Shown: positions 51,322 to 57,242 of the stretch, in pieces
Layout: each line of letters starts with the position of its first letter
Numbering within the stretch: position 1 is the stretch's first letter
Source of the DNA: Thermovibrio guaymasensis
GTDB taxonomy: Bacteria; Aquificota; Aquificia; Desulfurobacteriales; Desulfurobacteriaceae
Direction: 5' to 3'
Assembly: GCF_003633715.1 (NCBI RefSeq)
Contig: NZ_RBIE01000004.1
Coordinates: forward strand, 1 to 64,000
Length of the DNA: 64,000 bases
The notes under the pieces: model-generated
Told to the model about the DNA's origin: nothing
Databases searched by the model: none
What the model saw: only the letters and a program-made list of their open reading frames with translations
Program-made: the position numbers and the translations under genes

Positions 51322-51348
51322 TTAATTGGGATTCTTAGGAGGTAGTCT

Positions 51349-54300
51349 ATGGGAAGAAAGTGGAGGAGGCAGAAATTAACTCTCTCAACTGGTTTTATAC
51401 TATCTGCCATTTTAACTTCTCAGGCCCTTGCTCAGCACCCTGCCGTTAAGCTTATTGACGTTGACGGAAATCCTGTTTCTGAAAACCTAGACACTTCAAA
51501 GACCGTAACTGTTCAAAGTAGAAGCGGTAGTTCGGTAACCCTTCCTAGGGGAACTCCCGTTAGTTTTGAGAAGACCTGTAGCCAGTGTCACGAAGGTATA
51601 GTAGATGATGTAAGGGCTTCTCACCACGGTGCAGTTGGCCTACACGATATGGGCTGGATGGATAACCACGAAACGAAGGGAGACGATACAGGAACTAAGG
51701 ATTTCGTTACAAACGCTGTTCTTAAAATGCGCTACTTCAGGAGTAAGTCCCACTACGGAGGTTGGTGACCGCCCTCTTACCGCCAGTTGGCGGCAAAGAA
51801 ACCTCTAAAGGACCCTGCAGTTCCAGATGGCTCTGTTGACGGCGTAAATCCTGCAAATATGTCTTCCTACAAAGGTTTTAACTTTGACATGGGAACTATG
51901 AATCACAACATAACCTGTAACTCGTGTCACGCTGGAGGGGGAGCAGCCCAGTTTGGAAGGGAGGAAGAGGACCTTGATAAGGTTCTTGAAGAGAAATTAG
52001 GAGCGGACCTTTGGGAAGACCTTAAGGATAAAGATTGGTTTATTCACGATGAAGAGTACTTGTCTAAGACGGGTATAGATGGAGATCTACTGGGATATTC
52101 GGAGTATGAAGTAGGAGCAGGTTACATTGGAAAGCCGGGCGTTTTCAACTACAAAAGGTCAGGAGTTAACGATACAGACTGCTTTATGTGCCATGCAGAT
52201 GCCTCATCAGATAAGAGGATTTACTCTGAAGTTAACGGTACGAAAGTTTACCCAATAATGCCTGCTAACCCGAGAGTTATGGTTTTCAAGGGGATGACCT
52301 CCGATGGTGAAACAATCGTTATATCCCTTGGTTTTCCACCGAAGATTGGGGAGGTTATAAACGGAAAGAAAGTTGAGAAAGTTGACTCAGCTTATTACAA
52401 CTCAGTTCCCCTTTCGGTTCTAAATAGCGTCTATAACGATTCTAACCTTAAGAGTAGGATAACGGATAAGGACAATCAAGAGCTTAAGTTCTACCTCTAT
52501 CCGAACAATCCTAACGGTGCAACTAGGGAAGTTGCAAGGGTTACCTACTTTGAACACCCCGAAACTACTAAGGATAAGGATGGTGGAGAGGTCTACGTAA
52601 ACGGAGGTTCTGTAACCTTTAAGGACGATAACGGGAGTGTTGTCTATAGAACCTTTGCTGGATTCTTCTTTAAGTACATCTCTACAGCCTCCCTCATGGG
52701 AGTTGATACTGATGGAGATGGCGTTCCACTTGCCTACGTAAGGTTTGTTAAAGATGAAAAGGGTTTCTGGAGACCGGAAGTTTACTACGATTCTGATGAG
52801 TTTAACTCTAAAGGAGAGGTTGATCTACCAATCCTTGAAAATAGGGTAGGGGATAAGAACGTTCCATCTACAGAAGTTCATCCTCAGGACTACACCTATT
52901 CTGTTCCAACGAAACTGGGAGACGCTAATAATCCTTACCCCAGTATGACTAACGGTAATAAGGATAGGGAATGGGGATACGTCTGTTCCTACTGTCATAT
53001 GGCGATTCCTTATAAGAGTGGGGAGACCTCTAACGGTGACATCTATACGTGGGTTACGAGGAAGGGAACTTTAGGGGTTGCTGCTGAGGTAGTTAAGAGG
53101 GGAGACGTCTTCTCCTACGATCTTCACAGGGGTGGAGAGAATAAAGGGAACCTACCCCACGATGCTTTCGTTAATACAGACTTTAGTGATCAAAATCAGA
53201 AACAACAGGCCTTTGGAAGGATGTTGACAGCCAAGTCGGTAGTTTCCTTTGATGACATTCCTATCGGTTACGATGTTCACTTTGACAGTGAAAAGGGAAG
53301 TATGACTTGTCTGTCTTGCCACGGTGAAGGTTCACTGTCTACCGAGGAGAAGGAATATCACCCAATCCACCATGACTTCCTTAAGGGGAACGACTGGGGT
53401 GGTCACTGGGATCAGTCCCTTGACTATAACCCATCACTTAAGACCTGTTTAGACTGTCACTTTGGCGGTTCAAGGCAGCTTGCGGCTGAAGTTCACTTAA
53501 ACGCTTTCGGGCCAAACGGAGTTTCTGCTGTCCATATGGAGAAAGTTGCTTGTGAGGTCTGCCACATTCCGTTTAAGACCCACTGGACTTTTAGGACTTT
53601 CTACGACGTTCTCGGGTACTCCTATAACTTTGATAACAGAATGCTCGGCTATGATTTAGAAAATGGAACTGTTAGAAAGCTACCAGAGAGTATGTTTACT
53701 CCTGGGTTTGGTCCGTTTATGCCAATTGGTGGTTATGGAGCTCCCCAACCCTTCTGCATAGTTAGAACGGAAAATGGAAAGGATACTGTAGTTCCGATTT
53801 ACCAGGTTGACTTTGATCCAAGGCAGGCTGCACTCAGGTATAAGCAGAGCGTGTTTGGTATATGGAAGATTCCTGAAAACGCCTTCCCGTGGGCTTGGGC
53901 TCCTGTAATTATCAACAACGGCTTCAGGCCCGATTCTCCTGGAGGCCAGAAGTTTATGTACAGGATTGCCGATCCACTTACACTTGTAACTTGGTACGAC
54001 AAGTCAACAGGAAAGGTCTTGTACACTAGGGAGATGGCAGCTGCACTTGACGGTGCCGTTAAGTCGGATTCAGCTTCAAAGGGAGTTCTTCCAGCCGGCC
54101 AGAGTGAAAAGAGAGTCCCAGCCTACTTCATCCACGACGGTAAGGTCTGTGTAAAGACTATCCTCGGTAAGTACATCTGTGATGACAATGGAGACTACCT
54201 ACCTGAAATTGATACCGATTCCGAGTATCAGGATATGAAGGCAGCTATAACTGAAGTTCTTAAAGCTGAAGGAGTTAAGAATCCAGACCCAGTCTTCTAC

Positions 54301-55881
54301 CTGTGGATTGCTCCCTTTAGCATTGATCACGGAGTTCTCCCTAAGGAGTATGCTCTCGGTTCAGGAAAAGTTGTGAACGGTGAAGAGCTTAACTGTTCGT
54401 CCTGTCACGATGCAAAGGAGGGAAGACTTCCTCAGGCTAACATGGCTGATATTAACTCAAGTAGCCTAAAGGAGCTCATTGAAAGGGATGAGAAAGGAAA
54501 CGTTAAGTACTTTGGACTCGGTAGGGAAATCGTAACAGTTCCGGTTAAGATTCCTCCTTCTGCTTACAAGGAGGCTGTTAAGGTCTTCTTTAACTCTCCG
54601 GAGAACCCCGACGGTTCACCTAAGTATGGAAGTATGAACGGTAGAGAGGTTATGGTTACAACTGCTGGAGACATTCTCGTTAACGCCCTTACAAATGGAG
54701 TTGATGTTGATAGACATTTAGTTCCTATTCCCGTTGAAAGTTCAGGAATAGATGGAGTTGCTTTTGCCCTTCCTGGTAAGAAGGCCCAGTGGAAGATGAG
54801 GTTTGACGGAATTGAGGCAGAGGTTGAAACGGAAGCTCTCCACGGTGATGAAGTTCCAAGGAGAGCTATTGTCTTAAGACTTAAGAATGAACTTCCAGAA
54901 CTTCTCGGCTTTGAACATCACGCTGAGGAAATCCTTGATGCTGGGGGTGAAACCCTCGTTCCAGTATTTACTCCGATAATTCCCTCTGAGTTTATAGAGA
55001 AGATCAAGTTTAACCTTGCTAAACTTCAAGTTGTAGGTCCTGAGGGTCTCTATATCAACTGTGCAAAAATCCACAAGGTAAGGAAATCTGAAGGTGAGAA
55101 TGTCTACTACGAACTTGACAAGGATAACTTTAAGCCAACGTCAATTTCTGTGAGTGAAGCTATAAGTAGAGGTTGGGCTTCGTACGACTCCTACACAAAG
55201 GAACTTACAGTTAACGTTGCAGCTTTAAGGGAAGGTGTTTCAGGAGAGGGAGAGCTCGTCTTTGCCCTCATGAGAGCTCCGGAATCTACAGTAGTTATTC
55301 CGGAAAGGATTACTCTAGTTTCCCAACCTTCTGCTTTAGAGGTGAAGGTTAAGGTAACTGTTAGTGGCAAAGAGCATACAGTTGATATAGCAGTTGAGGA
55401 TGATGGAACTTCAATTTCTGAAGTTCTCGGAAAAGAGCCCCAAACCTACAGGGAGCTCCTTGACCTTGCCAAGGAGTTTGAACTCAGTAAAGTTATTCTC
55501 GGAGTTAAGTTAACTTCAACTTCAGAGAAGTTTAAGTTGACGTTCAAGGGTGCAGCTTCCTTGGTTGACCCTGATAAGGCTGTTGTTGCTGTTAAGAAGG
55601 GAGAGGGAACGGAGGTTGAAGTTAAACCTTCTGTTTCCGGAAATGACCTTGTAGCTGAGGTTGATTTAACAACCAGGTCTGAAGAGAACGGAGAGGCGGT
55701 AGTTGCAGTTCTTGGTGAGAAATCCTCTACTCCGACTGCTGAAGTTTCCTCTTCCGGTGGAGGCGGTGGAGGAGGATGTTCAATGGGAGCTCCTCAAAGT
55801 GCTGCAAACGGTCTAGTTAACCTTGGAGCTCTCTTAACCGGCCTACTTGGCCTCTTCAGATTTAGAAGGAAGAAGCATTAA
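51349..55881 (+). CDS. Octaheme c-type cytochrome, candidate selenoprotein (in-frame TGA at codon 140)
   Basis: About 1510 residues when TGA (51766-51768) is read through. Signal peptide: basic GRKWRR, hydrophobic core, cleavage near ALA-QHP (after residue 28). Eight CXXCH sites: CSQCH (51577), CNSCH (51916), CFMCH (52180), CSYCH (52984), CLSCH (53308), CLDCH (53446), CEVCH (53551), CSSCH (54394). The C-terminal 350 residues are beta-rich, ending in a Gly-rich tract, Cys1477, a hydrophobic helix and RFRRKKH, a sorting tail of the GG-C-TM-Arg kind. The part after TGA has no ribosome site and no signal peptide, so it is unlikely to be a separate gene. Probably an extracellular or periplasmic electron-transfer enzyme; the substrate is unknown. 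AGGAGG precedes the ATG. Confidence 0.85.
51758..51805 (+). promoter_or_regulatory. Candidate bacterial SECIS element spanning the in-frame TGA
   Basis: Inner hairpin CCGCC (51780-51784), loop AGTT, GGCGG (51789-51793), starting 11 nt after the TGA with the loop 16 nt after it. An outer stem GAGGTT (51758-51763) pairs perfectly with AACCTC (51800-51805) and encloses the TGA. A short apical loop with G in its first two positions, at this distance, fits the published bacterial SECIS consensus as I remember it. The element is within the coding sequence, as in bacterial selenoprotein genes. Confidence 0.6.
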
Positions 55882-55958: not shown

Positions 55959-57242
55959 ATGAGAGGTAAACTTGGAATTCTCCTGACGGCTACGCTCTTC
56001 CTTCTTTCCTGTTCTAACGGTGAAAAAGTTTCAAAAGCTGAAAAAGTTAAAAAGGAAAAGGGCCTTCAAAGTAGAGTGTGTTCAGATGATACGGTTTTGG
56101 CTAAAGGGAAGAACATTAAGGTGACCCTTGCCGATTACAGGAGCACGTGGAAACTCCTAAACCCTAAAGCTAAGGAGTTCTTTAAAAACCATCCTGAAGA
56201 GCTCTTAAGGAGGATGGTTAACCGCCGCCTCGTTCTGGCTTACGTTAAGGATAGCGGTCTTGCCAAAGAGTACGGTCTTGATAGGGAGATGGAGGAGTTT
56301 AAGAAGGAATACCTCTCCAGGAAGTTTGTTTCAGACCTTGCCAGGAAGAGAGTTAAACCGATAAGCGAGGAGGAGATAGAGAAGAGGTTTAGAGAGCTCT
56401 TTCCCAACAAAGACCCTAAGGAGATTAGTCAGGGAGATAGGGAGTTTATAAAAAACGAACTTCAAGTTAAAGCTTATGATAGGGCCGTCTCTTCGGTGTA
56501 TTCGGAGATTGAGAAGAAGTTAAAGGTAGTTAAGAAGGACGGTAAATTAACAATTGAGTGTTGCGGTATAAAGGTCTCTGAGAAGTTGGGGAAAGACCCT
56601 AAGAAGCAGGAGGAGAAGTTAAAGGAGAGGTTCTTAACTGAATACTTCTACAGTCAGGCTTTAAAGGCAGGTTACGATAAAGACCCTGAATTTAAGAGGA
56701 TGTTTACAGAGTACTTTGCCGGTAAGGCAATAGAAGTTTTCAAGAGGGAGCTCTCAAAGAAAATAGAGGTAAAGCCTGAAGAGGTTGAGGATTACTACCG
56801 GAGAAATAAGGAAAAGTTTAAGATGCCTGAGAGGGTCAAGGCAGTCGTTTTCTACTTCTCAGACGAAAGGAGAGCAAAAGAGGCTAAAGAACTCTTAGAT
56901 AAGGGAAAGTCTTGGCAGGAAGTTGCTAAGAGGTTTGGGCAGTTTAACGCTAGAGAGAGGGTTTACTATAAGGACGCTAAAGACCCTATAGGGGTAGCTA
57001 TCTTCTCAATAGGTAATCCAAAGGGCAAGGAAGCTATAATTATTTCACTTTCAGAAAACAGGTACGCTTTGGCTTATCCGGTTCAGTATATTCTCGGTGG
57101 ACCAATTCCTTTTGAGAAGGCAAAGAAGTTTATTGAGTTAAAGCTGAAAGAGAGAAAGCTTAGAGAGGCTGAAGAGAAAGAACTTTCTAAGCTCTGGAAG
57201 GAGTACAAAGTCAAGCTTGAGAACCTGTCCTGCTTAAGATAG
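55959..57242 (+). CDS. Parvulin/SurA-like peptidyl-prolyl isomerase lipoprotein
   Basis: 427 residues. Lipobox LLSC at about 15-18 (TLFLLSCSN) predicts a lipoprotein with Ser at +2, so likely outer membrane. An N-terminal SurA-type chaperone helix region (LLRRMVNRRLVLAYVKDSG) and a C-terminal parvulin-like stretch (EVEDYYRRNKEKFKMPERVKAV, KSWQEVAKRFG) follow. The isomerase domain is diverged and may be inactive. Adjacent to the giant cytochrome on the same strand, so it may help fold or export it; that is inference. Its 3' end overlaps the convergent kinase gene by 9 bp. Confidence 0.72.
   Translation: MRGKLGILLTATLFLLSCSNGEKVSKAEKVKKEKGLQSRVCSDDTVLAKGKNIKVTLADYRSTWKLLNPKAKEFFKNHPEELLRRMVNRRLVLAYVKDSGLAKEYGLDREMEEFKKEYLSRKFVSDLARKRVKPISEEEIEKRFRELFPNKDPKEISQGDREFIKNELQVKAYDRAVSSVYSEIEKKLKVVKKDGKLTIECCGIKVSEKLGKDPKKQEEKLKERFLTEYFYSQALKAGYDKDPEFKRMFTEYFAGKAIEVFKRELSKKIEVKPEEVEDYYRRNKEKFKMPERVKAVVFYFSDERRAKEAKELLDKGKSWQEVAKRFGQFNARERVYYKDAKDPIGVAIFSIGNPKGKEAIIISLSENRYALAYPVQYILGGPIPFEKAKKFIELKLKERKLREAEEKELSKLWKEYKVKLENLSCLR

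Follow-up and report, generated by a model that had tools for sequence, protein, structure and literature searches.

A probable selenocysteine at the predicted catalytic haem of a large octahaem cytochrome related to octahaem tetrathionate reductase

Introduction

How is a stop codon read when it lies inside an otherwise intact cytochrome gene, and what would the residue placed there do? The question is raised by a 64,000-nt stretch of the Thermovibrio guaymasensis genome (hereafter the window; its left edge is a contig start and bears a partial 5S rRNA at 1-83), in which nothing but a TGA at codon 140 interrupts a single forward-strand open reading frame (51349-55881) that encodes eight CXXCH motifs. 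Selenocytochromes are already known: ExtKL of Geobacter (NF040886) is one, and a 2026 selenoproteome review lists one selenocysteine (Sec)-bearing protein of the octahaem tetrathionate reductase (OTR) model TIGR04315, WP_331457571.1, taken from GenBank annotation (PMC13188914), so that a seleno-OTR has precedent on paper. We found no mechanism for a seleno-OTR in the literature that we searched. For OTR, the reduction of tetrathionate, nitrite, and hydroxylamine is on record (PMC4484225); catalysis takes place at its second haem, which has a conserved Lys as ligand (PMC11024163).

Results

The reading frame is under selection beyond the TGA

Haem 1 precedes the TGA, and 1370 open codons with seven further CXXCH motifs follow it, up to a stop that ends at 55881 (Table 1). 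An earlier note on this locus, made without database searches, had claimed an octahaem frame broken only by this TGA, with a downstream part lacking a start or export signal. The sequence confirmed the frame, and the earliest start codon 3' of the TGA proved to be a TTG at 51787, without an export signal. In the family alignment, His30, just past the signal peptide, is invariant, and exactly six His outside the CXXCH motifs are invariant as compared to eight haems. Comparison of the window gene with its orthologue L015 revealed 174, 86, and 678 differences past the TGA at codon positions 1, 2, and 3, respectively; since most of them fall at the third position, the region past the TGA is selected as protein.

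Table 1. Features of the cytochrome locus (positions are those of the window)
Feature	Position	Strand	Remarks and basis
Ribosome-binding site AGGAGGT	51337..51343	+	upstream of ATG 51349; sequence
Octahaem c-type cytochrome, predicted to contain Sec	51349..55881	+	1510 residues with TGA read through; eight CXXCH, all conserved in family alignment
Signal peptide, residues 1-28, ...SQALA/QHP	51349..51432	+	sequence
Haem 1 CSQCH (77-81)	51577..51591	+	sequence, family alignment
TGA, predicted selenocysteine 140, GGW-U-PPSYRQLAAK	51766..51768	+	same column TGA in families A, B, C; Cys in many outside relatives
SECIS-type hairpin CCGCC-AGTT-GGCGG	51780..51793	+	loop G 51786, 18th nt after TGA; comparative evidence
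Haem 2 CNSCH (190-194)	51916..51930	+	predicted catalytic haem; sequence, family alignment, OTR haem 2 catalytic (PMC11024163)
Haem 3 CFMCH (278-282)	52180..52194	+	sequence, family alignment
Haem 4 CSYCH (546-550)	52984..52998	+	sequence, family alignment
Lys583	53095..53097	+	invariant; proposed counterpart of OTR haem 2 Lys ligand
Haem 5 CLSCH (654-658)	53308..53322	+	sequence, family alignment
Haem 6 CLDCH (700-704)	53446..53460	+	sequence, family alignment
Haem 7 CEVCH (735-739)	53551..53565	+	sequence, family alignment
Haem 8 CSSCH (1016-1020)	54394..54408	+	sequence, family alignment
C-terminal sorting-type tail	55756..55878	+	Gly run, GGGCS, hydrophobic segment, RRKKH; MYXO-CTERM-like, below cut-off
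SurA/PpiC-type peptidyl-prolyl isomerase lipoprotein	55959..57242	+	adjoins cytochrome gene; Rotamase_2 match

The TGA is conserved and exchanges with Cys

Orthologues with a TGA at the matching position (HYGGW-U-PPSYRQLAAK) are present in 13 further genomes of the bacterial family. A paralogue family at ~40% identity likewise carries the TGA (GDDGAW-U-PPSYRQLAAK), as does a third, shorter family of ~820 aa (KL-U-PPAYRQLAP), and the TGA is fixed in the Sec column in all members of families A, B, and C. Because every orthologue and two paralogue families share it, the TGA is not a chance event. Outside Aquificota, the Sec column is Cys in Acidobacteria, Bacteroidota, Pirellulaceae (Planctomycetes), Ignavibacteria, Sumerlaeota, and others, and is TGA in Desulfobulbaceae. 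The phylum of locus L104 has homologues in 63 of 395 genomes, many of them with a TGA; in those that we read, the TGA falls in the Sec column, and others encode Cys, Ser, or Gln there. A further, fourth paralogue with eight haems lacks the TGA and carries Ser in the Sec column, yet retains haem 2 and the Lys (L053:4695-7598; L058:899-4309). No homologue of the window cytochrome was found in the plasmid collection that we searched.

A constrained hairpin follows the TGA

A hairpin begins 11 nt past the TGA. Folded singly, it is only mildly better than shuffled sequences (z -1.92), and the case for a SECIS element therefore rests on comparison. The codons CGC-CAG-TTG-GCG are invariant in 37 of 37 unique family sequences, with CGC, TTG, and GCG being rare (7.8, 6.4, and 7.1% of synonymous sets in these genes, respectively), and the CCN-CCN-TCN codons (Pro, Pro, Ser) ahead of them vary freely. 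Pair 5, beside the constant hairpin core, is C-G in 26 sequences and U-A in 11, which is a compensatory change. The pattern TGA-N12-CGCCAGTTGGCG returned 36 matches in 22 genomes and none in a reversed control; in the window's genome there are exactly three matches, which are its three TGA cytochrome genes. Across relatives, the G of the loop falls 18 or 24 nt after the TGA, some Desulfobacterota hairpins have a shifted register and a 5-nt loop, and the third family has a stem of just 4 bp at this site. Thus, a SECIS element is supported at the codon level: the constraint is shown, and recoding activity is inferred from sequence. The hairpin that the earlier note had placed 11 nt after the TGA held up; the outer 6-bp stem that it had drawn around it (51758-51763 with 51800-51805) did not, as just one of 30 sequences from families A and B can pair it in full.

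One relative, L106, nests among TGA-bearing members in the tree, has a TGT, and retains the hairpin TTTCGCC-AGTT-GGCGAAA; a search of its genome for tRNA-Sec found none. L106 thus represents a recent Sec-to-Cys replacement with a fossil SECIS. In this gene (L106:38-1855) the Cys codon lies within GGCAGGTACTGTACAGTT and the SECIS-type hairpin is intact.

The genome encodes the selenocysteine machinery

The same genome encodes SelB (431 bits), SelA (609 bits), and SelD (372 bits), with the SelD gene itself carrying an in-frame TGA, as well as a tRNA-Sec (80.8 bits; the ARAGORN call agrees, anticodon TCA). A tRNA-Sec was previously known in T. ammonificans and D. thermolithotrophum (PMC4227106). 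For the Sec-type member L117, whose genome is a MAG, no tRNA-Sec was present among the 150 of 382 candidates scored.

The features of a bacterial selenoprotein are thus met, namely a conserved in-frame TGA with Cys homologues, a SECIS hairpin, and sel genes. We consider it very likely that the UGA at codon 140 is decoded as selenocysteine; the presence of selenium in the protein is inferred, as there are no 75Se or mass-spectrometry data. The earlier note had called selenocysteine probable and had named findings that would refute it: no sel genes, homologues without Cys or Sec in this column, or a sequencing error at 51766. Each of these attempts at refutation failed: selA, selB, selD, and tRNA-Sec are all present, homologues have Sec or Cys, and a sequencing error is ruled out, since dozens of independent genomes carry the same TGA.

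The cytochrome belongs to a distant sister family of OTR

Scanning the window protein against NCBIfam returned no family over cut-off; the best match was OTR, at 31.5 bits as compared to a TIGR04315 cut-off of 375, and in failing this whole-protein threshold the protein is not an OTR proper. When profiles of the family and of OTRs from the same loci were aligned (hhalign), the probability was 99.9%, the alignment covering haems 4-8 together with the DVH motif and the array end. The window family is therefore a distant sister family of OTR within the OTR superfamily, a relationship that the earlier note had missed. The family profile retrieved nothing relevant from PDB sequences, and OTR structure 1SP3 was reached only via a neighbouring TIGR04315 gene, from which match the 1SP3 numbering was derived. 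In that numbering, Cys64, which reportedly lies in the OTR active site (Mowat et al. 2004), is ten residues ahead of haem 2, and Lys153 is past haem 4; the window family has Sec140 between haems 1 and 2, and Lys583 past haem 4. In the N-terminal part of the profile alignment the Sec segment is out of register with Cys64. Since the alignment misses this segment, the grounds for equating the two residues are the order of the haems and the parallel use of Sec and Cys. Sec140 thus appears to occupy the place of Cys64, with the residue-level equivalence being inferred.

Parallel use is seen in genuine OTRs. Among TIGR04315 matches over cut-off in the 395 genomes of the L104 phylum, 30 of 77 have one in-frame TGA. 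In the Desulfobacterota OTRs that we examined, the TGA replaces the Cys64 codon in 13 of 13 (L181, L185, L186, L191, L192, L195, L197, L199, L202, L204, L205, L206, and L208), giving NN/SF/Y-U for NNF-C. The expectation in the earlier note that selenocytochromes are very rare therefore failed, given the many TGA homologues and seleno-OTRs found.

The window protein shares with OTR (SO4144, PDB 1SP3, TIGR04315) eight CXXCH haems in the same order, a long gap before haem 8, a conserved Lys after haem 4, and a thiol or selenol residue between haems 1 and 2, at which Desulfobacterota OTRs likewise have a TGA. It differs in being three times longer, in its haem 1-haem 2 segment, and in its C-terminal sorting-type tail. 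With MmcA, a heptahaem protein of Methanosarcina (TIGR04314), it shares the superfamily and haem order; MmcA lacks the haem 2 motif and the Lys (PMC11024163), whereas the window protein has eight haems and keeps both. ExtKL is also an exported multihaem cytochrome with one predicted Sec, but is described as a 5-haem, 49.5-kDa protein in the ext cluster (PMC5877670), and its model NF040886 gave no match to the window protein at E<=1. WP_331457571.1 shares a Sec in an OTR-type octahaem cytochrome; the window family, in contrast, is outside TIGR04315, and the review table gives no Sec motif or mechanism (PMC13188914).

Sec/Cys, haem 2, and Lys are retained together

Among 106 aligned sequences, the 80 with haem 2 have Sec (53), Cys (21), Ser (5), or Gln (1) in the Sec column, and 79 of the 80 have the Lys. 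The other 26, nearly all from Chloroflexota, are without haem 2; this column holds Asp, Asn, or Ser in them, and none has the Lys. Sec/Cys, haem 2, and Lys are thus largely retained or lost together; the exceptions are family D and a few Desulfobacterota members, which have haem 2 and the Lys but Ser or Gln. In a quick tree with weak deep nodes, haem 2 loss maps mainly to one Chloroflexota-type clade, and for that reason we count the co-loss as one strong event and not as many.

In L072-L114 (Chloroflexota and others), an OTR gene has as its direct neighbour the gene of a 7-haem relative that lacks haem 2; in L072 this relative ends in a cytochrome b domain (thiosulfate reductase cytochrome b-like). 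The pairing may point to a two-cytochrome respiratory module.

C-terminal tail and neighbouring gene

The GGGC of the C-terminal tail is invariant in the family alignment. The tail pattern has only four matches in the window's genome, of which three fall within octahaem genes and the remaining one adjoins the third selenocytochrome locus (the window tail, and G000 C2:178362, C1:214703, and C1:152580). Surface anchoring is a possibility inferred from this tail. The PpiC-type neighbour is conserved in synteny with the cytochrome gene and alaS, and it is conceivable, again by inference, that it aids cytochrome folding.

Discussion

We propose that the product of the gene is an octahaem c-type cytochrome that is exported and belongs to the OTR superfamily, and that the UGA at codon 140 is recoded by SelA, SelB, SelD, and tRNA-Sec, with the small SECIS hairpin 11 nt downstream directing Sec insertion. 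Sec140 would sit, at the place of OTR Cys64, in an active site built around haem 2, the Lys-ligated catalytic haem, where it would act as a nucleophile or redox residue attacking the substrate while the haem chain feeds electrons. The suggestion in the earlier note of a Sec beside an octahaem centre is thereby sharpened to the predicted catalytic haem 2. The substrate may contain an S-S or S-O bond, as do tetrathionate and polysulfide, and is less likely nitrite or hydroxylamine; sulfur substrates are favoured because of the known OTR substrates (PMC4484225) and because T. ammonificans, of the same bacterial family, reduces sulfur and nitrate (PMC5441870). What is shown is the TGA conservation, the SECIS constraint, the Sec machinery, the Sec/Cys exchange, and the co-retention with haem 2 and Lys. 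That Sec140 is the catalytic residue at haem 2 is likely, with catalysis, Cys64 equivalence, and substrate all inferred, as there are no biochemical data and no usable structure. AlphaFold2 models were rejected as unusable (mean pLDDT of 43.5 for a Desulfobacterota homologue and 38.2 for window residues 28-1047).

One could argue instead that Sec140 binds haem iron, as an axial or a substrate-exchangeable ligand, or binds a second metal, and that it tunes potential and is not a nucleophile. The tracking of haem 2 by Sec/Cys, and the presence of just six invariant non-CXXCH His for eight haems, would fit this. However, OTR haem 2 has a Lys ligand (PMC11024163) and the Lys is conserved here, such that selenium on the same iron is not needed, and we regard this reading as unlikely. 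Similarly unlikely is that the protein is a non-catalytic conduit of electrons to extracellular acceptors, as proposed for MmcA, with Sec serving assembly, docking, or protection. The sorting-type C-terminus, the great size, and the distant MmcA similarity of relatives speak for a conduit, but haem 2 and the Lys, lost in MmcA, are retained here, and Sec/Cys along with them. In addition, Sec is costly and is rarely retained for a structural role.

That the UGA is read as another amino acid, or that the gene is a pseudogene or a sequencing error, is allowed only when a single genome is viewed, and is all but excluded. Against it stand the same TGA in dozens of genomes, purifying selection past it, the full Sec machinery, the SECIS constraint, and orthologue L015, which ends with TGA as its own normal stop. 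A change of genetic code was likewise rejected.

With Sec140 as a catalytic residue remaining our preferred reading, an odd stop codon becomes a testable rule, in that Sec/Cys, haem 2, and Lys are largely kept or lost together. This points to a catalytic pairing of Se or S with haem, in enzymes about whose natural substrates little is known. The Cys convert L106, with its intact SECIS fossil, offers a natural Sec/Cys pair for comparison. In bacteria that use Sec, annotation has probably split many multihaem cytochromes into two broken ORFs, and in doing so hides their first haem, signal peptide, and active-site residue. Related proteins show that the pairing of selenium with haem occurs far more widely than has been recognised. 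A bolder reading, which we would neither favour nor discount, is that a selenol or thiol at a Lys-ligated haem c is the catalytic residue across the OTR superfamily. If true, selenium plus haem would constitute an unrecognised class of respiratory reductase in vent Aquificota and many Desulfobacterota, spanning at least two sister families.
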